Shown: positions 3,912 through 55,843 of the stretch, piece after piece
How the letters are laid out: each line of letters opens with the position of its first letter
Numbering within the stretch: position 1 is the stretch's first letter
Assembly: GCA_903868145.1 (NCBI GenBank)
Contig: CAIPTY010000044.1
Coordinates: 1-56,086 of the forward strand
Source of the DNA: an uncultured Desulfuromonadales bacterium
Lineage (GTDB): Bacteria > Desulfobacterota > Desulfuromonadia > Geobacterales > Pseudopelobacteraceae
Direction of reading: 5' to 3'
Length of the DNA stretch: 56,086 nt
Position numbers and translations under genes: made by a program
The notes under the pieces: model-generated
What the model saw: the letters and a program-made list of their open reading frames with translations, nothing else
What the model was told of the DNA's origin: nothing
The model's database searches: none

Positions 3912-3935
3912 TAAGACGTTCCATTGCTATCTGGA

Positions 3936-3966
3936 AAAGCCCGCTGGGATCAGCGGGCTTTTTTTA
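3936..3966 (+). terminator. Rho-independent terminator after the cold-shock gene
   Basis: A perfect GC-rich stem, AAAAGCCCGCTG pairing with CAGCGGGCTTTT around a 4-nt loop, is followed by a run of T. It lies 25 nt after the csp stop codon. Confidence 0.92.
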
Positions 3967-4036
3967 TTATGCGAGCCAGAATGTTTTTGAGGCACTGTAG
4001 CTGCCGGGCAGCTCGCATTCCGACGGGGGAAAAGAA

Positions 4037-4240
4037 ATGGATGAGCGTCTGACAGACCTTGAGTTGCGCTATATGCAGCAGGAGAGAACCATCAACGAGC
4101 TGAACGAGACAGTCTGCCGGCAGGAGCTGTCAATTGCACGACTTGAGCGGGAACTCGGACAGATACGGGAACAGTTTCTGACGCTGTCCCCTTCTCTCAA
4201 CAGAACTTCCGATGAGGACGAACTGCCGCCTCACTATTGA
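4037..4240 (+). CDS. slyX: SlyX-family coiled-coil protein
   Basis: A 67-residue acidic protein, almost entirely a predicted coiled coil (heptads from about residue 5 to 50), ending in the PPHY tail typical of the SlyX family. Its length fits the family. The function of SlyX is not established. An AAAG-type ribosome binding region precedes the ATG. It stands alone between the csp terminator and the convergent hflX gene. The call rests on the coiled coil plus the C-terminal motif. Confidence 0.8.
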   Translation: MDERLTDLELRYMQQERTINELNETVCRQELSIARLERELGQIREQFLTLSPSLNRTSDEDELPPHY

Positions 4241-17876: not shown

Positions 17877-20800
17877 ATGACCCTCCACAAAGAAATCAAC
17901 TTCGAAAACGACCTCTGTAACCACCTCTCTGCCAACGGCTGGCTTCATGCCGAAGGTGATTCTGCCAGCTACTCCCGTGTTCACGCTCTTTTTCCTGCTG
18001 ATGTCATCGCCTGGGTACAAACCACCCAACCGAAAGCCTGGGAAACATTGGCCAAAAATCAGGGCGCAGTGGCAGAGGGAACTCTGCTGGATCGTATCCG
18101 CAAACAGCTTGACGACCGTGGTACATTGGACGTGCTGCGTCACGGTATTGAACTGCTGGGGCTGCGCCAACCGTTGCAACTGGCCCAGTTTAAGCCTGCC
18201 TTGGCCATGAATCCTGACCTGCAGGCCAAATACGCCGCCAACCGTCTGCGGGTAATCCGGCAGGTAAAATACTCAGTCCATAATGAAAACAGCATCGACC
18301 TGGTTCTATTCCTCAACGGTATCCCGGTTGCCACGGTGGAGCTGAAAAGCAACTTCACCCAGTCGGTGCAGGATGCGGTAAATCAATACCGCTTTGACCG
18401 CCACCCGCGTCCGAAAGGGCAAAACGGCGCTGAACCGCTACTGGATTTCCCCCGAGGTGCGCTGGTGCATTTTGCGGTGAGTAATTCCGAAGTGATGATG
18501 ACCACTCACTTGCAGGGGACAACCACAAAATTCCTCCCCTTCAATAAGGGGGATGATGGCGCAGCGGGCAATCCGCCCAATGAGCAGGGACACCGCACCG
18601 CATATTTGTGGGAACAGGTCTGGGAACGCGAGAGCTGGCTGGAGATCATCGGTCGTTATCTGGTAACAAAACGCAACAGCATGAAACAGATGGCCGGCGT
18701 TATCTTCCCTCGCTTTCATCAACTGGACGCCACTCGGAAATTGCTCGCAACAGTCCTTGAAGAAGGAGCCGGACATAAATATCTAATTCAACACTCTGCC
18801 GGTTCCGGAAAAACCAATTCAATCGCCTGGACCGCCCATTTTCTTGCCGGTATTCACGATGCCGATAACAAGAAAATGTTTGACACAGTGTTGGTTGTCT
18901 CCGACCGGACGGTATTGGATGACCAGTTGCAGGAAGCGATCTTTGACTTTGAACGCACCGTCGGCGTGGTTGCCACCATCACCGGGGAAAGCGCCAGTAA
19001 GAGCGGTGAGCTGGCCAAGGCTCTCTCCGGACGCAAGAAGATTGTTGTCTGTACCATCCAAACCTTCCCCTTTGCTCTTAAAGCTGTTCAGGAGCTGGCA
19101 GCAACTGAAGGAAAACGCTTTGCCGTGATTGCTGATGAGGCCCACAGCTCCCAGACCGGAGAAGCTGCCTCCAAGCTCAAGGCGGTTCTGTCTGCTGAAG
19201 AACTGAAGGATCTGAAAGACGGCGGCGAGATCAGCACCGAGGACATTCTGGTTGCCCGGATGGCGGCTCGGGCCAATGATGCGGGAATCACCTACGTTGC
19301 CTTTACTGCCACACCCAAGGCTAAAACCTTGGAGCTGTTCGGTAGACTCCCGAACCCCAAACTCCCAGCTAGTAAAGACAACCTTCCTGCCGCCTTTCAT
19401 GTGTACTCAATGCGGCAGGCAATTGAAGAGGGTTTCATACTGGATGTGCTGAAGAATTACACCCCCTACAACCTGGCTTTCAAGCTGGCCACCGGTGGCA
19501 AAGAACTGGATCAGACAGAGGTTGAACGGGATGAAGCTCTGAAGGGGATCATGCGCTGGGTACGGCTTCATCCGTACAACATCAGCCAGAAGGTGCAGAT
19601 CGTAGTGGAACATTTTCGTGAGAACGTGGCACCACTCCTCAACGGTCAGGCCAAAGCTATGGTAGTTGTCGGCAGCCGTCTTGAAGCGGTGCGCTGGAAG
19701 ATTGCGCTTGATAAATACATCAAGAGCCAGAAGGGGTGCAAGGTCAGCACTCTTGTGGCATTTTCCGGCGATGTGAACGATAAGGAGTCCGGTCCCGATC
19801 CTTTCAACGAAACCAGTAAAACACTCAATCCGAACCTGAAGGGGCGCGATATTCGCAAAGCTTTTGATACCGAAGAGTATCAGATACTGCTGGTTGCCAA
19901 CAAATTCCAGACAGGTTTTGATCAGCCGCTTTTGTGCGGAATGTACGTGGATAAGCGTCTGGCAGGTATTCAGGCTGTACAGACCCTTTCCCGTCTGAAC
20001 CGTGCCCATCCCGGCAAGGAGACCACCTATATTCTTGATTTTGTCAATGACCCGGCAGAAGTGCTGGCCTCTTTCAAGCCGTATTACCAGACGGCAGAGC
20101 TGGCGGGATTCACCGATCCGAACCTGGTGTATGATCTTAGGGCAAAACTGGATGCAACCGGCAATTATGATGACAACGAGGTTGAGCGGGTTGTCACAGT
20201 CGAGATGAATCCCACGGCACGTCAGGCCGAACTATCCGCCGCATTGGAGCCGGTTGCCGACCGACTGCTGAGGCGCTATAAGGCTGCTTATGAAAGACTG
20301 AAGGCGGCGCAAGCGATGAAAGATAAAGTCGCCGAAAAGAAAGCCAGGGCAGAGCTTGATGCGCTGATCCTGTTTAAACGCAATCTGGGATCATTTCAGC
20401 GGGTATATTCTTTCCTGTCACAGATATTTGACTACGGCAATACCGCAATTGAGAAGCGGGCCATCTTCTATCGGCGTCTGCTCCCTCTGTTGGATTTCGG
20501 GAGCGAACGTGAAGGGGTGGATCTCTCCAAGGTAATTCTCACTCATCACAAACTGAAGGATGAGGGCACACGTGATCTGCCGCTGGGAGCCGGTGAAAAG
20601 CTGAAACCGCTTACTGACACCGGTGGCGGTCAGATACGTGAGAAGGATAAAGTCTGGTTGGGCGTGATAATTGCCAAGGTAAATGAAATTTTCGGCAGTG
20701 ACACCACCGATGGCGATAAGCTTGCATGGCTTAACACCAAAAAAGAGAAGCTGTTGGAAAAGGATGTGCTGGTGCAGCAGGCACTTTCCAATACCGAGGA

Positions 20801-23691: not shown

Positions 23692-24135
23692 TCAGATTTG
23701 TGACACCTTCGCTACAAAATCGCGGGTCATCTGTGAAAATTTTTCCGCCTCGGCAGCAGAAACATAGGCGAAGCTGAAACGAAGGGGATTGATACCCAGT
23801 TGCGGCAGCATCCGCTCCAGAAGCTCCCCCCGGCAGAAAGCCCGCAGATTGCCTTCCTTGTAATGGCAATCGCCGGGATGGCAGGCAAGCACCATGACAC
23901 CGTCAGCTCCCTTCTGAAAGGCCTCAAGTATCAAGGCAGGTTCAACCCTTCCGGAGCACATTACCCGGATGACCGACAGCTCAGACGGCACCGGAAGCTG
24001 ACCCGCGCCCGCCTTGTCAGCCCCGGCGTAGGAACACCAGGTACAGAGAAACGCCACCACTTTGACCGGCCTGGTCGCGCGCTCGTCAGATATCGCCGGT
24101 TGTTTCAGATCGATCGGGCTGGTCTGGCAGCTCAT
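23692..24135 (-). CDS. mvhD: MvhD-type hydrogenase iron-sulfur subunit
   Basis: A 147-residue protein of the MvhD/FrhD family, a small [2Fe-2S] protein that passes electrons from an Mvh hydrogenase to HdrA. Conserved cysteines appear in order: FLCTWCSYAGAD (about 30-41), RVMCSGRVEP (about 57-66) and LACHPGDCHYKEGN (about 82-95). An N-terminal extension of about 25 residues precedes the domain. Its ATG overlaps the hdrA stop by 4 nt. The position next to hdrA and the hydrogenase subunits supports the role. Confidence 0.93.
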   Translation of the reverse strand: MSCQTSPIDLKQPAISDERATRPVKVVAFLCTWCSYAGADKAGAGQLPVPSELSVIRVMCSGRVEPALILEAFQKGADGVMVLACHPGDCHYKEGNLRAFCRGELLERMLPQLGINPLRFSFAYVSAAEAEKFSQMTRDFVAKVSQI

Positions 24136-26060
24136 GACAGCACCCCCTCAAGTTCGGCGCGCAGCATTTCCCGGGTAAACCCGCGTCCGCTGATAGCCCC
24201 TGAAGGACAGGCGGCAACACAGGTCCCGCAACCCCGGCAGAGAATATCGGAAATGTCCGAAATCTTTTCACGATCATTCCAGCTGATTGCCTTGTAGGGG
24301 CAGAGCGGGATGCAGGTTCTGCAACCGGCGCAGATAGTGGCATCCACAACCGCAACCTGCGGATCGACCACCAGATCCCGGCCTTCCACCAGTTCCGAAA
24401 GCGCCAGCCCGGCAGCTGCCGTCCCGGTTGCAAACGCCGCACGGATGTCATCAGGGCCACGGCAGGAACCTGCCAGATAGATGCCCTTCACGGACGTCTC
24501 ACAGGAACCGGACAGAGGGTGCAGTTGTGACGCAAAACCGGCCTGGTCGGTATCAAGCTCCAAAAGGGCTGTAATTATCGATGTGCCACTCCCCGGCGTT
24601 ACCGGTCGCATCAGCACGATCATCTCCGCCGACGCGCCGTTGCCGGAAGCGTTGCAGACGATGCGCCTGTCCGCACCTGATCCACTGACCGTAAGGGAAC
24701 TCATCCCGGCATAACGGACAACGGAACTTCCATCCTGATGGAACTGCCGACCCGCCTCGACGCCGGGTATAACCTGCTCCCGCACCAGACGGGTCACGAC
24801 AATTCCGGACGCTTTGAGTTGCGCCAGGTGGGCGAATTTTATGGCCGCGCGACAGCAGGTGCCAGAGCAGTAGGGCGCTTCAGAGGGATCGAGGGAACCG
24901 GCGCAGTGGATTATAACCAGGGAGCGGGGAATGGTTGCGACACTGGTGAGAAGCTCACCGCCGGTCGGCCCGTTCATGGCTAGTAACCGCTCAAAGCTGT
25001 AGCCGGTGTGCACATTGTCAAGCCCCGAAAAGAGGGGGGGAACGTCCTGTTTTTCCACTGAACCGGTAGCCAGAATGATGGCACCGGCCTGGATGGTTAT
25101 CTCCCGTCCGGCATCAGCGAAGTCAAGCGAACCTTCCACCGGGCAGGCGCTGACACAGGCTTCACACTCCTCTCCCCGAAGGCGCAGACAGCTTTCCGGA
25201 TCGATGTAAGGCAGGTTGGGCAGCGCCCCGGCAAAGGGTGCGTCTACCGCCGACAGGTTGCCCGAGCCGTTCCAGGGATGAGGGCGTTGGGCGGGACAGG
25301 CAGCGGCACATTCCATGCAGCCGATGCAGAGAGCGGAATTGATGAAGCGGGGGCGCTGCCGCACCGTCAGGTTCCAGTTGCCGAACTGTCCCGTAACTGA
25401 GGTCAACCCGGCCATGGTCAGCAGGCTGACGCGACCGCTGCCACTGCCGTGGAGCAGTTCGCCCATGATCGGCTCCAGCAGGCAGGGGCCGCAATCAAGA
25501 TTGGGAAACAGTTCTTCGAAACGAACCGGCAGGCCACCGATGAACGGTTCTTTCTCGATCAGGGTCACCTCTCTGCCGGCCTTTGCCAGGGTCAGAGCTG
25601 CCTGCATACCGGCCGGTCCGGCGCCGATAACGGCAACCCCCGTTTTCACCGGCACCGATCGCTCGCTGAGCGGTTCATGGCGCTGGACGCGATTCAGGGC
25701 TGCGGCCAGCAGGCGGGCGGCTTTGCTGGCAGCCTGAACAGGGTCTTCCGTCACCCAGACCACCTGCTCACGCACATTGACCATCTGCAGAAAGTAGGGA
25801 TTGATGCCTGCATCTTTCAGGAGTGCCCGGAAGGTGCCTTCGTGTTCGCGGGGTGAGCAGGCCGCCACGACCACCCGGTCGGGCTGCTCCTGTTTCAGGC
25901 AGGTTATCAGATGTTCCCGGCTGTCAAAGCCGCAAGCCAGTTCATCAGTCATGAAAACCGGGCGGACGGGATGGTTCTCCAATAACCGACGAACCGTATC
26001 CCAGTCGATTTTTTCAGTGATGATTCCGCTGCAGGTGCAAAGAATGACGACGGTCTTCAT
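24132..26060 (-). CDS. hdrA: HdrA-like FAD/iron-sulfur electron-transfer subunit
   Basis: A 642-residue flavoprotein of the heterodisulfide reductase A family. An N-terminal Cys-containing domain (CTCSG near 8-12, CSPREHEGTF near 69-78) is followed by the FAD-binding GAGPAG (146-151). Two internal cysteine sets come next (Cys245/248/251/255 and 291/299/302/306), then a C-terminal pair of ferredoxin motifs (Cys577/580/583/587 and 608/611/614/618). In methanogens HdrA bifurcates electrons between a heterodisulfide and ferredoxin. No HdrB or HdrC is in this cluster, so the acceptor here is open. It is translationally coupled on both sides. Confidence 0.93.
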   Translation of the reverse strand: MKTVVILCTCSGIITEKIDWDTVRRLLENHPVRPVFMTDELACGFDSREHLITCLKQEQPDRVVVAACSPREHEGTFRALLKDAGINPYFLQMVNVREQVVWVTEDPVQAASKAARLLAAALNRVQRHEPLSERSVPVKTGVAVIGAGPAGMQAALTLAKAGREVTLIEKEPFIGGLPVRFEELFPNLDCGPCLLEPIMGELLHGSGSGRVSLLTMAGLTSVTGQFGNWNLTVRQRPRFINSALCIGCMECAAACPAQRPHPWNGSGNLSAVDAPFAGALPNLPYIDPESCLRLRGEECEACVSACPVEGSLDFADAGREITIQAGAIILATGSVEKQDVPPLFSGLDNVHTGYSFERLLAMNGPTGGELLTSVATIPRSLVIIHCAGSLDPSEAPYCSGTCCRAAIKFAHLAQLKASGIVVTRLVREQVIPGVEAGRQFHQDGSSVVRYAGMSSLTVSGSGADRRIVCNASGNGASAEMIVLMRPVTPGSGTSIITALLELDTDQAGFASQLHPLSGSCETSVKGIYLAGSCRGPDDIRAAFATGTAAAGLALSELVEGRDLVVDPQVAVVDATICAGCRTCIPLCPYKAISWNDREKISDISDILCRGCGTCVAACPSGAISGRGFTREMLRAELEGVLS

Positions 26061-26533
26061 GACATCTCCCGTTGCCCGGATTGAAAATCACCAGCCAGGA
26101 TTTCCCTGACAGCAGAGCAGGCCCCGACCAGCGCAGCCTGGACCGGTGCGGTTAGCTGTTCGCTGAATGTGGTCACATCCCCGGCAGTAATGGCCACCAG
26201 ATGGATATGTTCATTGGCGGGAAGACTCAGCCCCATCGCCCTGCCCATGGCAAGTGCCTGGGTCAGGGTGCAGTCGTGCCCGCACGAGGCGTTACGGCTG
26301 TGGTTTTCCACTCCGCTTACGACCACCTCGCCCGGTTCACGACGGACATCGACAAGGGCATCGACGATAACCGCCCGCCGGGTTCCGGCCAGTTCCTCAA
26401 GCAGCAGCATCCCACCGGCGTGAGATTCGACGAGCCGGACGCCGTCACAGCCCTGCCGGACAAGCTCCCGGACAACGCGGGGACCAACGCTGTCGTCTGT
26501 CAGAAATGGCGATCCGAGTCCTATCACTATCAC
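26057..26533 (-). CDS. Hydrogenase maturation endopeptidase
   Basis: A 158-residue protein of the HyaD/HycI/HoxW family, nickel-dependent proteases that remove the C-terminal tail of the [NiFe] large subunit after metal insertion. It has GLGSPFLTDDSVGP (about 5-18), a D-containing VIVDALVDV segment near 55 and a C-terminal His-containing HLVAIT strand. It lies 2 nt after the large-subunit gene and overlaps hdrA by 4 nt. The large subunit has a 25-residue tail after its DPCxxCxxH motif, a matching substrate. Confidence 0.92.
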   Translation of the reverse strand: MIVIGLGSPFLTDDSVGPRVVRELVRQGCDGVRLVESHAGGMLLLEELAGTRRAVIVDALVDVRREPGEVVVSGVENHSRNASCGHDCTLTQALAMGRAMGLSLPANEHIHLVAITAGDVTTFSEQLTAPVQAALVGACSAVREILAGDFQSGQREMS

Positions 26534-26535
26534 CG

Positions 26536-28023
26536 TCAGTCCCTCGTAATCCTGTCCAGCAGGGATCCGTCAGATCTGCGGAGCGAGAGTTCAAGCGGCG
26601 CCTTGCCGAGGGCATGGGTGGCGCAGGAACAGCAGGGGTCGTAAAGCCTGAATGCCATTTCAACCCGGTTGAGAATACCGTCATTAAAAACACCACCCTT
26701 GATCAGTCCCGTTGCAGCCTTCATGATCGAAAGAGAAATCGGGGCGTTATTGTTGGTGGTGCCGACAATCATGTTGACTTTCTTCAACTGCCCGCGTTCG
26801 TCGGTCTCATAGTGGTGGAAAAGGGTGCCGCGCGGCGCCTCCACGCAACCGACGCCGACACCGGCCCGAGGCTCCACCTTCCCGCGTACGTTGGGGTCGC
26901 AGATGTCGGGATGATCCAGCAGTTCCACCATCCGTTCGGCCGCCTGCAACAGCTCGATCAGGCGTGCCCAGTGGGTTGCCAGGCGATGGTGTACCGGCAG
27001 GTTGCGGCCATGCGGCCCCGTGCCGCGAGCCTCGAAAGTCTCGAAAAAATGTTCGTATTCGGCCTGGGCCAGCGGGGTGGCCATGCGGTCAGCCACGTTG
27101 AGGCGCGCCAGCGGGGTGGCCTGGTAAATACCGCTCTCCTGCCCGTCCACAAATCCTTTCCAGCCGAATTGTTTGAGGTAAGGGAACTTCAGGTAACTCC
27201 AGGGCTCCACATGCTCGGCCAGATGCTCCAGGTAGTCCTGCGATTCGTACATCGTAACCTGATTGCCGACGGTATCAACCACCCGGATGGTGCCGTCGTA
27301 GAAATCAGGGGCAAAGTCGGCGTTGACGGTTCCCATGCTGTGGGTTTCGTTGCGGTAGAGGTCGGAGAGAAGCATGTCATGGTAGAGCGGGTTGCCGAGG
27401 ACGACATCCGCAAATACCGTGAGCGAGAATTGTGCAAAATCCACATTCTCACGGGCAGTCTGCCTGAAGTCTTGCCGCATGTCCGCCGTCAGCGGAACAG
27501 CCCAGCCACCCGGCAAGGCGCCGCAGAGATGTATCCCGCGTCCGCCAAGTCTCTTGATCAGGTCGTGGTTGCGCTTGCGGCATGCTATAACCTGCTGCCC
27601 CACATCCAGCCCAACCTTACGGATGACCCCGAGTATGTTGCGCTCCGCCGGCGGGGCATCGGGGCCGACGATGAAGTCGGGACCGCCCAGGCAGTAGAAG
27701 TGGGTGGTGTGGTCGGTGACAAAAAAGGCCATGTAGATCAGTTCGCGGATCCGGCGCGCCGCCGGGAGACATTCGAGGCCAAACGCTCTCTCCACCGCCT
27801 TGATGGCTGCCATGTGGTGAGCCTCGGGGCAGACCCCGCAGATACGGTTGGTGATGTTGGGCATCTCCTCGGCCTGCCGGCCGACGCAGAAAGACTCGAA
27901 ACCGCGCAGTTCGGGAACCTGGAAGTAGGCCGATGAGACGTTACCGGCATCGTCCAGAAATATCTCGATTTTGCCGTGCCCTTCCAGACGGGTGATCGGG
28001 TCGATGGTGATGCGCTGTTTCAT
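26536..28023 (-). CDS. mvhA: Mvh-type [NiFe] hydrogenase large subunit
   Basis: A 495-residue catalytic subunit of a cytoplasmic group 3 [NiFe] hydrogenase. Nickel ligands are present in the N-terminal RICGVCPEAHH (Cys62, Cys65) and the C-terminal DPCCSCATH (Cys464 or 465, Cys467; His470), followed by a 25-residue tail expected to be removed by the protease encoded next. No signal or Tat sequence is present. It takes up or makes H2 and feeds electrons to MvhG, MvhD and HdrA. The operon order is mvhG-mvhA-protease-hdrA-mvhD. It overlaps the small subunit gene by 4 nt. Confidence 0.95.
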   Translation of the reverse strand: MKQRITIDPITRLEGHGKIEIFLDDAGNVSSAYFQVPELRGFESFCVGRQAEEMPNITNRICGVCPEAHHMAAIKAVERAFGLECLPAARRIRELIYMAFFVTDHTTHFYCLGGPDFIVGPDAPPAERNILGVIRKVGLDVGQQVIACRKRNHDLIKRLGGRGIHLCGALPGGWAVPLTADMRQDFRQTARENVDFAQFSLTVFADVVLGNPLYHDMLLSDLYRNETHSMGTVNADFAPDFYDGTIRVVDTVGNQVTMYESQDYLEHLAEHVEPWSYLKFPYLKQFGWKGFVDGQESGIYQATPLARLNVADRMATPLAQAEYEHFFETFEARGTGPHGRNLPVHHRLATHWARLIELLQAAERMVELLDHPDICDPNVRGKVEPRAGVGVGCVEAPRGTLFHHYETDERGQLKKVNMIVGTTNNNAPISLSIMKAATGLIKGGVFNDGILNRVEMAFRLYDPCCSCATHALGKAPLELSLRRSDGSLLDRITRD

Positions 28024-46578: not shown

Positions 46579-47484
46579 TTATTTCAAAGCGTGAGCCTTG
46601 GGATGTGCCTTGTCGTAGACCTCCATCAGACGATCGATGCCGACATGGGTGTATTTTTGGGTGGTGGAGAGCGAGGCGTGGCCGAGTAGTTCCTGAATGG
46701 CGCGCAGGTCTGCGCCCCCTTCCAGCATGTGGGTGGCAAAGGTGTGACGCAGGATGTGCGGCGAAATGCGTTTGAATGCGGCGATGCGCATCACGTGGGT
46801 ATCCACAATACGGGTGACACTGCGCCGGTTGATGCGTTGGCCGCGAGTGTTCAGAAACAGCACATCACTTCCGTTCGGGTTGTCACGCTTTGCCAGATAC
46901 TCCCGGACGGCTTCGATAGCACGGCCGCCAACCGGGACGATCCGCTCCTTCCCACCTTTGCCCATCACCCGCACCATGCCGCCCGAAAGATCCAGGTCGC
47001 CGATCATAAGGCCGGTCAGTTCCGAGACCCTCAGACCCGAGGAGTAGAGCATTTCCAGAATTGCCCGGTCGCGCAGGCCATATTTTTGATTTTCTGCCGG
47101 AGCCTCAACCAGGGTGGTTGCCTGGTCTATATCCAGATGAAACGGCAGGAGCTGCTCTTTTTTGGGTGTCGCAATAAGTTCTGCCGGGTTTTTAGCCAGC
47201 ACCCCCTGGCGGATCAGATACCGGAAAAAGCTCCGAATCGCGGCCAGCTTTCGCCCCATGGTGCTTTTTTTTGCCTTTTTGCCCAACAGCGCAAGGTAGC
47301 GACGTAACAGCAGATGGTTCACATCCGAGGTGGTTGCACTCTCCCCTTTTTCACGGGCTACAAAGTCCGCCAGTTGATCCAGATCCCGATGATATGCCTC
47401 AAGAGTGTGAGGCGAGACGTTGCGCTCCTCGTCCAGGTATCCGCAGAACATTTCGATATGTTTACTGAATGTTGTCACAGCCAC
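46579..47484 (-). CDS. xerC: Tyrosine recombinase XerC/XerD type
   Basis: A 301-residue tyrosine recombinase with an N-terminal SAM-like DNA-binding domain (about 5-90) and a catalytic domain holding the Arg in [10 protein letters not shown], Lys in [20 protein letters not shown], the second His in [14 protein letters not shown] and the Tyr in the same motif. Chromosome-dimer resolution at dif is the usual role; XerC or XerD cannot be separated with confidence. It starts at GTG 47484, right after the stop of the upstream lipoprotein-like gene, so the two may be coupled. Confidence 0.93.
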
Positions 47485-49574: not shown

Positions 49575-50633
49575 ATGCTCGCAAAAGTTTTCAGCAGCGC
49601 CCTGATCGGTATCGATGCCATTCTGGTTGATGTGGAGGTTGATCTTGCCCCCGGATTACCTGCTTTTGCCACGGTCGGCCTACCCGACGGCGCCGTCAAG
49701 GAGAGCAAGGATCGCGTCAAGGCGGCGTTGAAAAACTCCGGGTATGATTTCCCGGCTCGCCGCATTACCGCAAACCTGGCGCCGGCTGATATCAAAAAAG
49801 AAGGGGCTGCCTACGATCTGCCCATCTCCATCGGCATCCTCGCAGCAACCGGGGTCATCAAGGGTGCGAAGCTCCACGAATATATCCTGCTGGGAGAGTT
49901 ATCGCTGGATGGCGGTTTAAAGCCGATTCGCGGTGCGTTATCCATGGCAGTTGCCGCCAAGAAAGCCGGCTTGATCGGTCTGATTCTGCCGGCGGAAAAC
50001 GCCCCCGAAGCGGCTGTTGTCTCAGGTATCGACGTTATAGGTGCCACATCCCTTTCGCAGGTGGTGGAGTTCTTAAGTGGCCGCGAGATTATCGAACCGT
50101 GCCGGGTTGATCTGCAGGCGCTTTTTTCCAGCGGCTGTGAATACGGTGAGGATTTCAGCGAGGTAAAGGGGCAGGAACACGCCAAGCGTGCGCTGGAAAT
50201 CGCCGCCAGTGGTTCACATAATATCCTGATGATCGGCCCGCCAGGCTCCGGAAAGACCATGATTGCCCGTCGTATCCCGACCATTCTCCCCCAGATGTCC
50301 TTTGATGAAGCCATCGAGACTACCAAAATATTCAGCGTCAGCGGTATGCTGGAGAAGGAACGCGCCCTGCTGGCGGTGCGTCCTTTCCGTTCACCGCATC
50401 ACACCATCTCCGATGTGGGGCTGATTGGCGGCGGCACGACACCCAAGCCGGGTGAGGTGTCACTGGCTCATAATGGCGTACTTTTTCTGGATGAGCTGCC
50501 GGAATTCAAGAAGAACGTTCTTGAAGTCCTGCGACAGCCACTGGAAGATGGCAAAGTCACCATTTCGCGTTCATTGCTGTCACTCACCTATCCGGCACGT
50601 GTCATGCTGGTGGCAGCCATGAACCCCTGTTGA
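49575..50633 (+). pseudogene. comM: comM/yifB Mg-chelatase-like ATPase, cut after 352 residues by an integrated element
   Basis: The 5' part of a YifB/ComM gene, which encodes a hexameric helicase-like AAA+ protein aiding branch migration in transformation. The N-terminal domain (about 1-180), Walker A GPPGSGKT (about 220-227), the AAA core and FLDELPEF (Walker B) are intact. Full-length relatives are about 505 residues and continue AAMNPCPCG. Here the frame reads AAMNPC and then stops at TGA, where foreign sequence begins near 50630. The missing 3' part is expected at the far end of the element, outside the window. Confidence 0.93.
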
Positions 50634-50636
50634 AGC
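50588..50636. other. Left attachment junction (attL) in comM
   Basis: The comM coding sequence AACCCCTGT (about 50623-50631), expected to continue into CCNTGC for Pro-Cys-Gly, is followed instead by TGAAGCGGTACTC, where it stops matching. The crossover is thus near 50626-50632. The exact core cannot be set without attR or an empty comM. Confidence 0.7.
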
Positions 50637-52105
50637 GGTACTCTTTTCATAGTAGATGCATCCAGCTCAGGTACATTCCGCAAAACAAAATTCAGGCAAT
50701 CATCCCCAACATCAATCTTTTCAATTAGTTCTGACAGCAGCTCTTGTTTTGCGCCATAACTCAGATCATTCCATATGGAAGAAAGCGATTTTATCCTGTC
50801 AATCACGTATTCTCTGCTTATCTGTTCGGTCTTGTAAAAATCAATTTCTGCTTGAAGTCTAGGGATTTCGTTATCAACAAGTTCCCTTCTTACACTTAAA
50901 GGCTCCACCCTTGAGGTGAAAAGGTCCTTTACAATTCGTCCCTCACCATAAAGTTCAAATAGCATATCTATCTTTTGATTGATCGATTTGAACTCTTTCC
51001 GCAGGATTTCCAACCTATCTGTTTTATCAACAATCTTATTTTCCAGATTGATTTCGCCTTCCAGCTCTTCGGGGTGAATGTTTATATTTTGAACCAAATC
51101 CAGAAAAGCGGCTTCTATGGCGTCCTCGTTAATTTTTCTCGTGCAAGAGCGACATATATACCGTGGTGTTTTCATTCCACTGTAAGGACTGACATACATT
51201 TTTTGCCCACAGTCACAAATCACCAGGCCTGAAAACAGATATGATCCTTTTTTGGGAACGGACTTCTGAACATTGTATCTTCGCTCGCTTGCGAAAAGCA
51301 TATTCTGAACTTTATCCCATGCTTCCTCAGAGATTAAGGGAGGTACGTCCGTAAACACCCAGTCAGTCTCTGGCTTGAGTTCCCAAGATTTCTTATTGCC
51401 CTTACTTCTTGAATAGTTTGCACGCCGAGTACCTTTATAGGCAGGGTCTGTAAGGACACGTTTTATAGTTGTTGCGGTAAAAACAGACTTCCTTGATCGC
51501 AAACCTTCTTGTGACATTATTTTGCACACAGTTTTTATTTTCCCGTGCTCCTCATAGAGCTCAAAGGCTCTCTTTACAACCGGAACCTCCTCTGGGTTAG
51601 GAATTAATTTACCTTCTACCCAGTGAAAACCAAAAGGGCCAACTCCACCAGTGTGTTTACCAAGTTTAGCTCTTATAGGGATTGATGCGGCGACACGAGC
51701 GGAGATTTCCTCTCTTTCCCATTGAGCGAGGGCACCGATGACAGTGTAAAGAAGACGACCAGCAGGAGAAGATGTGTCAATGCTTTCTTCAAGGCTGATA
51801 AGCGATGCATTATATTTTTGGAAGTATTCAGAAATGTCTAAAAGCTGTTTTGTATTTCGAGCGAGTCGGGCGAGTTTAGAGAATATTAAGGCCTTTATTC
51901 GACCAGAGGCAACATCCTCAAGCATCCTCTTTGCTTCAGGATTATCAAGTACGTTTTTCCCAGACACACCGGACAGATCATACAGTTCTACAATATTCCA
52001 CTGCTTTATTTCCGCGTACATCCTGGCACGAGCTTCGTGGTTTTTTGGAGACTCTCCCCGTGCCTGGTCTTCAGTTGAAACTCTAATCCATATTCCTACG
52101 TCCAT
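50588..52105 (-). CDS. int: Large serine recombinase (site-specific integrase)
   Basis: A 505-residue serine integrase. The resolvase catalytic domain (about 1-140) holds the nucleophile Ser in IRVSTEDQ (Ser10) and [10 protein letters not shown] recombinase domain (about 150-260) and a zinc ribbon (ICDCGQKM and YICRSC) follow, then a coiled-coil C-terminal region (about 350-430). ATG 52105 with GAGG 8 nt upstream is preferred over GTG 52114, which overlaps the ribosome binding site. Its last 14 to 15 codons read through the comM side of the junction, so the tail differs when the element is excised. It integrates and, with a partner factor, may excise the element. Confidence 0.94.
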
Positions 52106-52447
52106 ATGAATCACCTCACCAGCCTAAGTTATGAAGCCGATAATTTTAATACTTACTCGAAGCACAGCCAATTCAAACACACCATCAGAATCCACTCTCG
52201 AATATGTTCAGGACGTTACAAGGAATAAAAGCACAACTTTGATTAGCGTGGGCTTTTATTGAGAGGCACGACATTAGAAGTTAAAATAGCAAAATTCGGA
52301 CTGCGTATTAGCAGTCTGCCGTTATCCTGTTGGTGGTCTGTCAATTTGATACCACTAACAGTGGTAGTTTTCAATAATTATGCATCGTTCCGCATATAGC
52401 GAAACAGCCCTCATAACGGTATTTTCCAAAACGGAGATTTTATCGCT
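52106..52447. promoter_or_regulatory. Divergent regulatory region between integrase and XRE repressor
   Basis: No gene is visible in these 342 bases. They hold a 9-bp inverted repeat, AATAAAAGC (52224-52232) with GCTTTTATT (52252-52260), and a perfect operator-like palindrome, TACCACT-AAC-AGTGGTA (52350-52366), on the side of the repressor gene. Promoters for both directions are expected here. Confidence 0.6.
52350..52366. promoter_or_regulatory. Operator-like palindrome TACCACT-AAC-AGTGGTA
   Basis: A perfect 7-bp inverted repeat with a 3-bp centre, 82 nt upstream of the XRE gene start. Size and position fit the operator of a dimeric XRE regulator that controls itself and/or the integrase. 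Confidence 0.55.
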
Positions 52448-52870: not shown

Positions 52871-53074
52871 ATGAAAGTAACATTTGAATTTAATAAATGT
52901 CACGGTTCCGAAGTAAGATGGCAGCGTATGCTGGATATCATCCGCCGGGATTTGGAAAAGCAAAGCATTGTGAGGTATTCGCAGTCTGATCTGGCAACAG
53001 CAACGCCCTCCACTCAAATCATTCCTCACAAACGTTCGAAAAAAGAATCGATTCCGGCAGTAAAAAATTCATGA
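52871..53074 (+). CDS. Hypothetical protein upstream of the replication initiator
   Basis: A 67-residue basic protein with no recognisable domain; it starts MKVTFEFNKCHG and ends in a Lys/Ser-rich tail. Its last codons overlap the ATG of the replication gene (ATGA), so it is co-translated with it. It could be a copy-control or accessory replication protein. The coding assignment rests mainly on the overlap. Confidence 0.55.
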   Translation: MKVTFEFNKCHGSEVRWQRMLDIIRRDLEKQSIVRYSQSDLATATPSTQIIPHKRSKKESIPAVKNS

Positions 53075-53856
53075 GCAGTTCAGGTTTCATCTTTCTGCCT
53101 GACGACATAAAGCTGCAACTCCCAGAGTGGGCAGACTCATTACGAGTATTACCTAACGAGGTTGTTCGTTCAGCTCTTTTCAATGTAGGGAACAGAAATC
53201 AACCAAGGCGTAACATTGAAAACGAGGAAATTGCCACTCTCGGGGATGGTTGTATCACATACACTGGCAAGGAATTACGTCAAGACGATGAGCTTGTATG
53301 GCTCAATATTCTCAATTTAATCAGAAAGCATCATCTCGGAGAGTGTGTGGAATTCTTGCCCTACTCGTTCCTACGCGAAATTAGCTGGCCAACAAATGGC
53401 GGTGGTGCTGAAAGATTGAGAAAATGCCTGTTAAGGATGTCTGTGACCGGTTTGACCATTTCATCAAAGCGACTCGGGATGGCAATTAACGTCTCTTTGA
53501 TCAGGAAATTTCTTTGGCGTGATGAATATACCGGCGAGCCATATAAGCAGTGGAAGGTGTGGCTTGAACCGGAGATATTATTATTGTTTGAGCCAAATTA
53601 TCTCACGTATCTCGACTGGCAAGTCAGGAAAAAGCTTCCAACAGGGATAGCTACTAGACTTTATGGATATTGGTCATCGCATCGTAAACCATTTCCAGAG
53701 GGGATATCTCGCTTAATGGTCGTGTGTGGGACCAAGATGCCAGTCAAACATTTCAAGGAGCAGCTAAAAGAAGCTTTGGCTGTGATGGAAACGGTCGGCT
53801 TTCTCTCCTCCTGGGAGATCTCAGCTAACGATGTAGTCAAGGTTATGCGTGCCTAG
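53071..53856 (+). CDS. TrfA-family plasmid replication initiator
   Basis: A 261-residue protein resembling TrfA of broad-host-range IncP plasmids: LPEWADSLRVLPNEVVRSALFNVG (about 15-38), ITYTGKELRQDDELVW, FLREISWPTNGGGAERLRKC, YLTYLDWQVRKKLPTG and LYGYWSSHRKPFPEGISRL, in the same order as TrfA. TrfA binds iterons and melts the origin. The gene is followed by eight iterons starting 4 nt after its stop. It overlaps the preceding small gene by 4 nt. The initiator strongly suggests plasmid-like replication of the element. Confidence 0.9.
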   Translation: MSSSGFIFLPDDIKLQLPEWADSLRVLPNEVVRSALFNVGNRNQPRRNIENEEIATLGDGCITYTGKELRQDDELVWLNILNLIRKHHLGECVEFLPYSFLREISWPTNGGGAERLRKCLLRMSVTGLTISSKRLGMAINVSLIRKFLWRDEYTGEPYKQWKVWLEPEILLLFEPNYLTYLDWQVRKKLPTGIATRLYGYWSSHRKPFPEGISRLMVVCGTKMPVKHFKEQLKEALAVMETVGFLSSWEISANDVVKVMRA

Positions 53857-53859
53857 TTT

Positions 53860-54147
53860 TCGACTTATGACCGATTAAGCCACAGTTTCAGGTGGTTGAA
53901 GCAGACATCCACCATTTGCCAGTTTTTTATCGACTTATGACCGACCATATTATGCAGCTTGAGACCAGGAAAATGAGGATTTGAGTGACTCGCTTTGAAA
54001 CGCTCTGGAATCTATCGACTTATGACCGACTCGATTGGGTCACTTTTCGACGTATGACCGGCAAGAATACGACTTATGACCGACCGCCATCGACTTTAGA
54101 CCGACAGGGAATCGACGTATGACCGGAGAGAAATCGACCTATGACCG
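53860..54147. repeat. Iteron array, eight copies of TCGACTTATGACCG
   Basis: Copies start at 53860, 53930, 54015, 54047, 54069, 54090, 54112 and 54134. Copies 1, 2 and 3 are perfect TCGACTTATGACCG; the others differ at one or two positions. The last five start 21 or 22 bp apart, two helical turns, so proteins bound there lie on one face. All point the same way. This is the classic make-up of an iteron replication origin. Confidence 0.92.
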
Positions 54148-54273
54148 GCAGGGGGTGTCTGAATTCATTCGTAATAATAGCAACTTTAAGAGTTGTCAAC
54201 AGCCCTATAACCTTTCTTTAACCTTTTTATAACCAAACCGTGTGCACGAAGGCAATGAAGGATTCCAATAGAT
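54148..54273. other. AT-rich region next to the iterons, probable origin melting region
   Basis: No gene is visible in this stretch. It is AT-rich and has three direct TAACC repeats (about 54210-54235, TAACCTTTCTTTAACC), a TTGTCAACA sequence loosely like a DnaA box, and a small CAACT/AGTTG hairpin (54181-54195). Together with the adjacent iterons it fits an oriV unwinding element. Confidence 0.6.
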
Positions 54274-54600
54274 ATGTTTTGTAAGAACAGCCCTAACAAT
54301 GAAATTTCGAGGATTGTGGTTAATCACTTGAAACACAATCGCCTGACCATTGAAGCTGATGAAGGCCGTTATTGGCTTACTGCTGGAACTCCAAATATCA
54401 ATTTGATCAACCAGGCATTTCAAGATGGGGCGATCAGAATTGAAGAAGATGGAGCGATCTCGATCTGCGGAGAAAGCATTCATCCTAGATGGGATACCCT
54501 CCGAATCCGGAGAAAAGTCGAAGACTACCTTCGAAAGTCAGCTTCAACAGCCGAAATTATCAAAACAGCAAGTTGCTTAGGAGTCAGCATCACCAGCTAG
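54274..54600 (+). CDS. Hypothetical protein of the mobile element
   Basis: A 108-residue protein, acidic, with NEISRIVVNHLKHNRLTIEADEG and a C-terminal helical region with a possible helix-turn-helix (KSASTAEIIKTASCLGVSI). I do not recognise the family. It lies just past the origin region and ends 69 nt before a terminator hairpin at 54669. The coding call rests on the open frame and codon-like composition. Confidence 0.55.
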   Translation: MFCKNSPNNEISRIVVNHLKHNRLTIEADEGRYWLTAGTPNINLINQAFQDGAIRIEEDGAISICGESIHPRWDTLRIRRKVEDYLRKSASTAEIIKTASCLGVSITS

Positions 54601-54709: not shown

Positions 54710-54725
54710 ATTCACAGGAGCTGAT

Positions 54726-55325
54726 ATGGATTTTGATGCGGCAGTTAAATGGGTAACTGAGAACAAGGCTCTTATTATTAAGAAAGCTCATCATTATTGC
54801 CAGTATGGCCCCTATGAGCCTGTTGACTACATACAGACGGCCTATGAAGCGTCTCTTGTCGCAGCTCTCCGTTGCCAGGCAAAAGATTTGGAATTCAGGC
54901 CGGTATTCTGGTCAATCTTCAAGACTATGGTCCGGGAGGTTACTCCATTCCCGATGGAAATACACGGGTCTAACTCGATCCCCTCTGATTTCTGTTCAAA
55001 TATTGAAGATGAAGATCTTTCCGCTGATTTTACGGATGCTGACGCGGAGCCTCTTGATTTTGTCGAATTGATGTACCAGTCGGTGTGCGACTACCTACCG
55101 AAAGTAGAGCGCGAGGTATTGGCTCTGTCCTTGGGGGTCACCGGGGAAGGTGCATTGAATAAACGTGAAATTGCTGAAAAACGTAAATGCACGCTGGAAA
55201 ACGTAAAGCAAACAATTCGACGGTCTCTGGTTAGAATTGAGTCATTGATTAACGAGGGGGTCATTGAGCCGATGAATATCCTGAAAGACGTGAACGCTCC
55301 AATTGGCTCCAAATTCGTTGATTAA
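54726..55325 (+). CDS. Sigma-70-like protein encoded by the mobile element
   Basis: A 199-residue protein with a region 2-like part (about 27-75, EPVDYIQTAYEASLVAALRC and FWSIFKTMVRE) and a region 4-like helix-turn-helix near the end (about 130-180, LPKVEREVLALSLGV, LNKREIAEKRKCTLENVKQT). The acidic stretch between them (about 95-120) is unusual. The frame extends upstream to 54489, but the ATG at 54726 has AGGAG 5 nt upstream and follows the terminator. It may direct transcription of the element's own genes. Confidence 0.75.
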   Translation: MDFDAAVKWVTENKALIIKKAHHYCQYGPYEPVDYIQTAYEASLVAALRCQAKDLEFRPVFWSIFKTMVREVTPFPMEIHGSNSIPSDFCSNIEDEDLSADFTDADAEPLDFVELMYQSVCDYLPKVEREVLALSLGVTGEGALNKREIAEKRKCTLENVKQTIRRSLVRIESLINEGVIEPMNILKDVNAPIGSKFVD

Positions 55326-55396: not shown

Positions 55397-55843
55397 ATGG
55401 GTACTGCAGACGATTTTGAGTTTTCGGAAAAAATCACCAGAAAGTTGGTGAGGGATGGACTGATTTCGCGTCGAATAACCGACGATGATCTCTATTTCAT
55501 GGGACTTTTGAAGAGGGTTTGGACTGATGAGTGGTATGTGGCTCAAATGTGCAAAAGGTTTCGCCCGGAGAAACGTGCAGTGATGCTGGCTTTTCCGGAT
55601 TTCAACAAGATCCAGCTATATATCCTTAATTCATATCTGAAACTCAAACCTGGAGTGAAACTGCGTGTACCGGTAGTAGTCGACAGAATCCATACATACC
55701 TTGGAGTAACAAATTATGACAAAGCCGACATAATTCGCATCCGCCAGATTGCCTACAACATTCGTAGAAACTCTAATCCAAAAATGAGGAAAGATAAAAT
55801 GATTGAGCTGGCTCTGTTGGAAAAAACATCCATTTTTACGTAA
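55397..55843 (+). CDS. Hypothetical protein of the mobile element
   Basis: A 148-residue protein with mixed alpha/beta composition (KLVRDGLISRRITDDDLYFMG, MLAFPDFNKIQLYILNSYLK) and a basic C-terminal part (RIRQIAYNIRRNSNPKMRKDK). No family is recognised. An upstream GTG at 55337 is possible, but ATG 55397 has a GGGAG site. It follows the sigma-like gene by 71 nt and may share its transcript. Confidence 0.55.
   Translation: MGTADDFEFSEKITRKLVRDGLISRRITDDDLYFMGLLKRVWTDEWYVAQMCKRFRPEKRAVMLAFPDFNKIQLYILNSYLKLKPGVKLRVPVVVDRIHTYLGVTNYDKADIIRIRQIAYNIRRNSNPKMRKDKMIELALLEKTSIFT

Follow-up and report, generated by a model that had tools for sequence, protein, structure and literature searches.

A TrfA-type iteron origin at the left end of a probable integrative and conjugative element in yifB of a Geobacteraceae-like bacterium

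The 56,086-nucleotide stretch of DNA analysed here (the window) probably contains the left end of an integrative, and probably conjugative, element that lies in the gene yifB and uses an iteron replicon after excision. On the best reading, the host is a Geobacteraceae-like bacterium, and the element was inserted by its own large serine recombinase. The window holds what looks like a complete and well preserved TrfA-type iteron origin. A similar origin is present on related elements of many Geobacter-like bacteria, and therefore these elements are probably able to replicate as circles after excision. A sequence-only reading of the same DNA had proposed a TrfA-like initiator, an iteron origin and an integrated element, and these points are supported by the results; its interpretation as a whole, which included life as a plasmid, harm from firing in the integrated state and tight control, is partly supported. 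The coordinates of the features are collected in Table 1.

Table 1. Features of the yifB-inserted element and its left junction in the window
Feature	Coordinates	Strand	Evidence
yifB/comM-type gene, 5' part (352 codons), interrupted by the element	49575..50630	+	TIGR00368
Large serine recombinase, 508 aa (resolvase, recombinase and zinc-ribbon domains)	50588..52114	-	PF00239/PF07508/PF13408
attL: yifB AACCCCTG joined to attP arm GCGGTACTCTTTTCATAG	50622..50652	.	Comparison with intact yifB and contig C43
XRE/Cro-type regulator, 111 aa	52448..52783	+	HTH_3, 59.5 bits; 93% identical in L004, L005
67-aa ORF, its end overlapping the start of trfA	52871..53074	+	tblastn to L039, L042, L044, L045
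trfA, predicted replication initiator, 261 aa	53071..53856	+	PF07042 match; dN/dS 0.014 against L004
Three spaced iterons (53860, 53930, 54015)	53860..54028	+	Spacers diverge in relatives, iterons kept
Five iterons, phased 22, 21, 22, 22 bp	54047..54147	+	Repeat search, alignment
DnaA-box-like 9-mer TTGTCAACA, degenerate	54193..54201	+	TTTTCCACA, TTATCAACA or TTATTCACA at the equivalent place in relatives
Putative unwinding element: TAACC in three copies spaced by about 11 bp	54208..54234	+	32 of 37 loci
Conserved 108-aa protein	54274..54600	+	Conserved in relatives
Sigma-70-like protein, about 199 aa, weak	54726..55325	+	TIGR02937, 28 bits (cut-off 42.9); PF04545, 16.5 (24.1)
Conserved 148-aa protein	55397..55843	+	Comparison with relatives
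Conserved ORF of about 200 aa, start portion, cut by contig end	55934..56086	+	Actin-like gene (weak match) next in L005

The insertion into yifB can be followed at both ends of the element. The match of the yifB 5' part to TIGR00368 (478 bits) stops at profile position 348 of 499, and the genome of the window (G000) has one 5' half and one 3' half of the gene, the latter at G000:C43:20084-20557 (minus strand). The attR junction was found on contig C43, where the other arm, CTATGCAAAGAGTACCGC, is an inverted copy of GCGGTACTCTTTTCATAG with one mismatch. The arms of the two junctions form an 18 bp inverted repeat with one mismatch, as expected for the attP of a serine recombinase, and the proposal of an integrated element is borne out by both att sites. 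The recombinase scores 377.6 bits against a PHROG integrase. The element DNA in the window has a GC content of 43%, compared with 51-61% in the preceding 5-kb bins, and the contig end is reached 5.4 kb into the element. The sequence-only reading had spoken of integrases in the plural. This stands for the serine recombinase (50588-52114), but the tyrosine recombinase encoded at 46579-47484 exceeds the cut-off for XerC and is taken as the housekeeping enzyme, so that the element owns just the serine recombinase. The frame of the latter ends inside yifB (50588-50630), and its last codons consequently change upon integration; in G051 and G060 the two genes overlap likewise. In the chromosomal part of the window, HdrA-like and F420-non-reducing-hydrogenase-like genes adjoin each other (24132-28023), both below curated cut-offs.

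The same association of yifB with trfA was observed in related genomes. Of the 26 places with trfA in 76 genomes of the family, 11 have a yifB 5' half no more than 4.2 kb from trfA and a twelfth has one at 9.7 kb, the distances being obtained by subtracting coordinates. A relative of the recombinase is present in 13 of the 37 trfA loci of the order, which reach just 1.5 kb upstream. The two halves of yifB are separated by 54 kb in G051 (one contig), 130 kb in G060 (two contigs), 162 kb in G056 (one contig) and 141 kb in G014 (about 30 contigs), and a second yifB 3' half lies 14 kb further on in G060. We take G060 to be, very likely, G. lovleyi SZ, and G057 to be, probably, P. propionicus. No exact end overlap was found in contigs C28 and C2 of G031, C79 of G046, or C87, C44 and C43 of G000 (five of them with trfA), nor any overlap between contigs. 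The gene yifB appears as an insertion hotspot of the family: many matches end at codon 351-352 with a short frame, and others near 307-312 (G057, G031, G044, G072) or 214-232 (G058, G073), some of these short frames being contig edges. More than one 3' copy occurs in several genomes, e.g., G015, G016, G018 and G060, and one copy in G016 is situated about 9 kb downstream of the intact gene. On G051:C1 an intact yifB (4086306-4087829) lies about 31 kb before the interrupted one (18334-19386), if the contig is circular.

Judged from its sequence, the product of the 53071-53856 frame is a TrfA-family initiator. In line with the TrfA-like initiator of the sequence-only reading, it matches the Pfam TrfA profile PF07042, with 138.4 bits (cut-off 22; E=3.2e-40) over profile positions 38-278 of 282; a search of NCBIfam gave no model at E<=0.01. 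TrfA folds into two winged-helix domains. The AlphaFold model of the window protein, built with 4 sequences, is poor (mean pLDDT 40.5), and no solved structure related to it by sequence was found at E<=1. The gene is under strong purifying selection, with 71 synonymous and 5 non-synonymous changes between the window and L004 (dN/dS 0.014); in the comparison with L006 the synonymous sites are saturated. It is present in 20 of the 76 family genomes, and none of the 26 matches contains an internal stop, so that the frameshift in relatives which the sequence-only reading had named as a refutation was not encountered. Three of these matches are partial, namely G028 and G055, which lie at contig edges as judged from locus lengths, and a rearranged remnant in G044:C25. 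In the last of these (3923-4105, L028), the 3' part of trfA is fused to other sequence, and iterons and TAACC repeats are retained. At E<=1e-20, trfA was found in 33 of 141 genomes of the order, where three further partial matches occur (G078, G079, G094). In a tree of 44 TrfA rows, the order's 32 rows, apart from two distant ones of G044, cluster together (93/87, below the star level) and the window falls within a four-row clade (100/99); the long branches make the deeper joins unsure. One close relative, L005 (CAJAJL010000042.1, TrfA identity 98%), comes from a MAG labelled Chlorobiaceae, which may reflect cross-phylum transfer or a binning error.

The first of eight direct iterons (TCGACNTATGACCG) begins 3 bp past the trfA stop. 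They start at 53860, 53930, 54015, 54047, 54069, 54090, 54112 and 54134, all on the plus strand, with spacings of 70, 85, 32, 22, 21, 22 and 22 bp; six match exactly, and the other two deviate at 1 and 2 positions, respectively. When up to 2 mismatches are allowed, the 56-kb window contains these eight and no others, compared with a mean of 1.03 and a largest value of 5 in 100 shuffles; in 500 shuffles of just the 417-bp origin, never more than one iteron appeared. The array described earlier, directly after the initiator and with its last five copies at 21-22 bp, was thus recovered in full and far above the shuffled expectation. The AT-rich stretch that had also been pointed out lies at 54171-54230, where two 30-bp bins reach 70% AT, and it contains an ordered set of motifs that had not been described there, the box-like 9-mer and the TAACC repeats. 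The three-TAACC pattern occurs once in the window and was absent from 100 whole-window and 2000 local shuffles. A strict DnaA-box scan found none at the window origin; better boxes occupy the same position in many relatives, and within the window's own clade the box is degenerate. The iteron letters of RK2 differ from those of the window, as had been remarked from the sequence, and so does the order of its boxes: the box-like 9-mer of the window sits between the iterons and the TAACC repeats, unlike the boxes of RK2.

Conservation of this arrangement was examined at two depths. The origin of the window was aligned with those of L004 (G039:C166), L005, L006 (G031:C28) and L007 (G046:C79), whose TrfA identities are 98% (98% also in L005) and 90%; L004, L006 and L007 come from genomes of the window's family. 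The iterons, including the imperfect copy, and the block of box and TAACC repeats are kept in all of them, and the spacers between the first iterons vary. At 17 more distant loci (TrfA identity 47-53%), 5-7 iterons were counted in every case, mostly 21-23 bp apart, with consensus letters drawn from the same loci and no shuffle control; this count omits L024, L025, L026, L028 and L030 (contig edges, the remnant and two distant homologues). Three TAACC repeats follow trfA in 32 of 37 loci of the order, the window's included, although many of these loci are nearly identical and hence not independent. Two repeats occur at two loci and none at three, of which L026 stops at a contig edge, and L025 and L030 encode distantly related TrfA proteins (28% and 25%). 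In the loci with three repeats, the box-like 9-mer precedes them. By the stricter window consensus, no iteron was found in L025 and L030, both from G044, which carry repeats with letters of their own (11-12 copies in a loose count). As read from these loci, the iteron letters vary with the TrfA type, and G000 itself holds two types.

Comparison with plasmids places the module in a wider context. Of 72,556 plasmid records, 602 contain TrfA, in every case below 60% identity. The best match (44.9%) belongs to a Methylobacter plasmid (L151), and its TTGACTTATGACCCAC-type repeats, five unphased copies upstream of trfA, are the nearest to the window iterons among ten plasmid regions, so by its letters the window iteron is not isolated. 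In 5 of the 10 regions, trfA is followed by an array of at least five repeats spaced at about 20-23 bp (L152 Nitrosococcus, L153 Methylomagnum, L156 Chromobacterium, L158 P. aeruginosa and L159 P. putida). Three phased copies were found in L155 and an upstream array in L160; no clear repeat array was seen in L154 and L157. Three or four close TAACC repeats follow trfA in half of these ten plasmids (L152, L155, L156, L158, L159), and in L153 they are present in reverse orientation. Since phased iterons and TAACC repeats lie beside trfA on several of these circular plasmids, the window module appears to be an ordinary TrfA-plasmid origin with letters of its own. A phage origin was rejected: TrfA had no match in the phage collection, and none of the 14 stretches of viral contigs that fit a peptide pattern encodes a relative.

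The remaining genes of the element offer candidates for its control and maintenance. Between the recombinase and trfA, the window has an XRE/Cro-type regulator, G060 a CI/S24-type repressor and G051 an HTH protein; the window protein is a candidate regulator of either the replicon or excision. The 67-aa frame had no family match in profile searches, and its first 32-38 codons are recognisable in distant elements by tblastn. For the 108-aa protein no family match exceeded a cut-off. The start of the sigma-70-like frame is the in-frame ATG at which the alignment with a relative begins (54726), the profile searches having been run on 54711-55325. The start of the 148-aa frame was moved from 55337 because L005 and L006 carry an upstream stop. 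Its position had suggested an FlhD-like activator, but this idea gained no support: comparison with the single protein E. coli FlhD by BLAST and hhalign yielded no match, and the structure model is poor (pLDDT 56). Downstream of its replicon genes, L005 carries an actin-like gene (weak match) and a DsbC-like protein, where the transfer region begins. The actin-like and sigma-like matches fall below curated cut-offs.

Genes for F-type conjugation are carried by both full-span relatives examined, G060 and G051, and transfer genes are also present in G031:C28. In G060, Pfam models identify TraL, K, B, C, N, U, G and F, and NCBIfam models point, all below cut-off, to W, TrbC, H and a TraD-like ATPase. 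G051 has homologues of the G060 transfer genes at 28-44% identity, plus a TrwC-type relaxase with helicase. In the window's own genome, the sole TraU gene lies outside the window's contig, on C87, close to the genome's second trfA, whose iterons are TTGACCTATGACCG. The window copy may therefore lack or have lost a transfer apparatus, or contigs may be missing. C87 has no PF07508 or PF00589 match and was considered as a free plasmid, which was rejected: genes for ctp protease, trpE and gcvPB begin about 4 kb past the replicon, and because such chromosome-type genes come after it, this copy is more likely integrated as well. Three trfA loci with one shared iteron type were found in G031 (4% contamination). 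Loci of the same type are expected to be incompatible as free plasmids, and this fits a mainly integrated life, although the genome may mix strains.

These observations are consistent with the following course of events. While integrated, the element would be copied with the chromosome, and its replicon would be kept silent, probably by the nearby repressor-like gene together with iteron-bound TrfA. Excision would restore yifB and produce a circle, on which TrfA would bind the five phased iterons and the TAACC block would open. The circle would then replicate as a low-copy theta plasmid until re-integration or transfer, and the three spaced iterons would set its copy number. It is possible, on a more tentative view, that the order hosts a whole ICE family of plasmid-ICE hybrids, which alternate between yifB and a TrfA-driven, actin-segregated circle and whose iteron/TrfA pairs act as incompatibility groups. 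If so, integration would let several related replicons that are unable to coexist as plasmids share one cell.

Other explanations of the module have to be weighed against replication after excision. TrfA and its iterons could chiefly mediate incompatibility or exclusion, or have a regulatory function, without replicating the element. Such a role would suit the dependence of iteron type on TrfA type and the two types in G000, and the iterons adjoin trfA itself in elements that, when integrated, need no origin. The box and the TAACC block, however, would be dispensable for it and are nevertheless conserved in order and spacing, and the three loci of one iteron type in G031, for all that its 4% contamination may mix strains, do not fit either; this explanation is unlikely. 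The module could also be a relic of an ancestral plasmid turned island, with trfA and oriV no longer functional. This is quite improbable in view of the dN/dS value between the window and L004, the absence of internal stops from all 26 trfA matches, and the retention of iterons and TAACC block in relatives with 90% protein identity and, as modified versions, in those with about 50%. The facts that agree with decay are the integrated state in three one- or two-contig genomes with both junctions placed (G051, G056, G060), the single rearranged trfA remnant in G044:C25, and the degenerate DnaA box of the window copy. The middle of the element is absent from the contig, which ends within it, and an ordinary plasmid might have been fused to yifB by an assembly error; yet the identical junction occurs in other assemblies, one- and two-contig genomes among them, and the arms at the two ends correspond to each other as inverted repeats, which makes such an error extremely improbable.

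Summarizing, an integrated element whose iteron replicon is used after excision is the preferred reading, and it provides the ICEs of Geobacter-like metal-reducing and dehalogenating bacteria with a defined replicon and insertion site. The trfA-oriV fragment could become a native vector for Geobacteraceae. Among the matches listed from the open-licence PMC literature, no title or abstract start mentions a TrfA-iteron replicon in Geobacteraceae. G. lovleyi SZ, which is available in culture, is very likely G060 and would then carry such an element. Its 'Tr' island, a large chromosomal island with an F-type tra cluster, a resolvase at one flank and orthologues in Pelobacter propionicus, is very likely the G060 element; the main text of that report contains neither TrfA nor iteron nor 'integrat', and neither the yifB target nor the replicon is described in the portions of it drawn on here (PMC3403914).

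TrfA in integrative elements has already been published, and SGI1 and the TrfA-bearing Vibrio islands are precedents for the window element. In the published description, the SGI1 origin lies directly downstream of rep and comprises four 17-bp iterons, a DnaA box and three short repeats inside an AT-rich region (PMC7433901). The window element is likewise integrative, and its initiator gene directly precedes iterons, a DnaA-box-like 9-mer and three repeats in an AT-rich stretch, but it has TrfA and a yifB site, whereas SGI1 has a RepA_C initiator and a trmE site and is mobilised by helper plasmids (PMC7433901). Replication of SGI1 was detected with excision alone, and its authors left initiation in the integrated state possible (PMC7433901). 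Since the anatomy of the window is so close to that of SGI1 and the initiator is unrelated, use after excision is the most likely reading. The yicC-specific Vibrio islands and SGI1-like elements share a PF07042 TrfA within an integrative element, but are gammaproteobacterial, helper-dependent and inserted at another site; iterons are not among the features described in the portions of these reports drawn on here (PMC8409611, PMC9035990). RK2/IncP resembles the window in its TrfA, five-iteron minimal origin, short repeats in the unwinding element and, to the extent of one box-like 9-mer in the window, DnaA boxes, but is a plasmid with four 13-mers and four DnaA boxes, compared with the three TAACC repeats of the window (PMC4980987). 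The SXT/R391 ICEs share with the window family an ICE with replication and an actin-type partition locus, but their replication was proposed to start from oriT by the relaxase, in contrast to the iteron origin of the window element (PMC4489591). The window family would thus add evidence that the boundary between ICEs and plasmids is thin, by way of an iteron origin instead of relaxase-driven replication.
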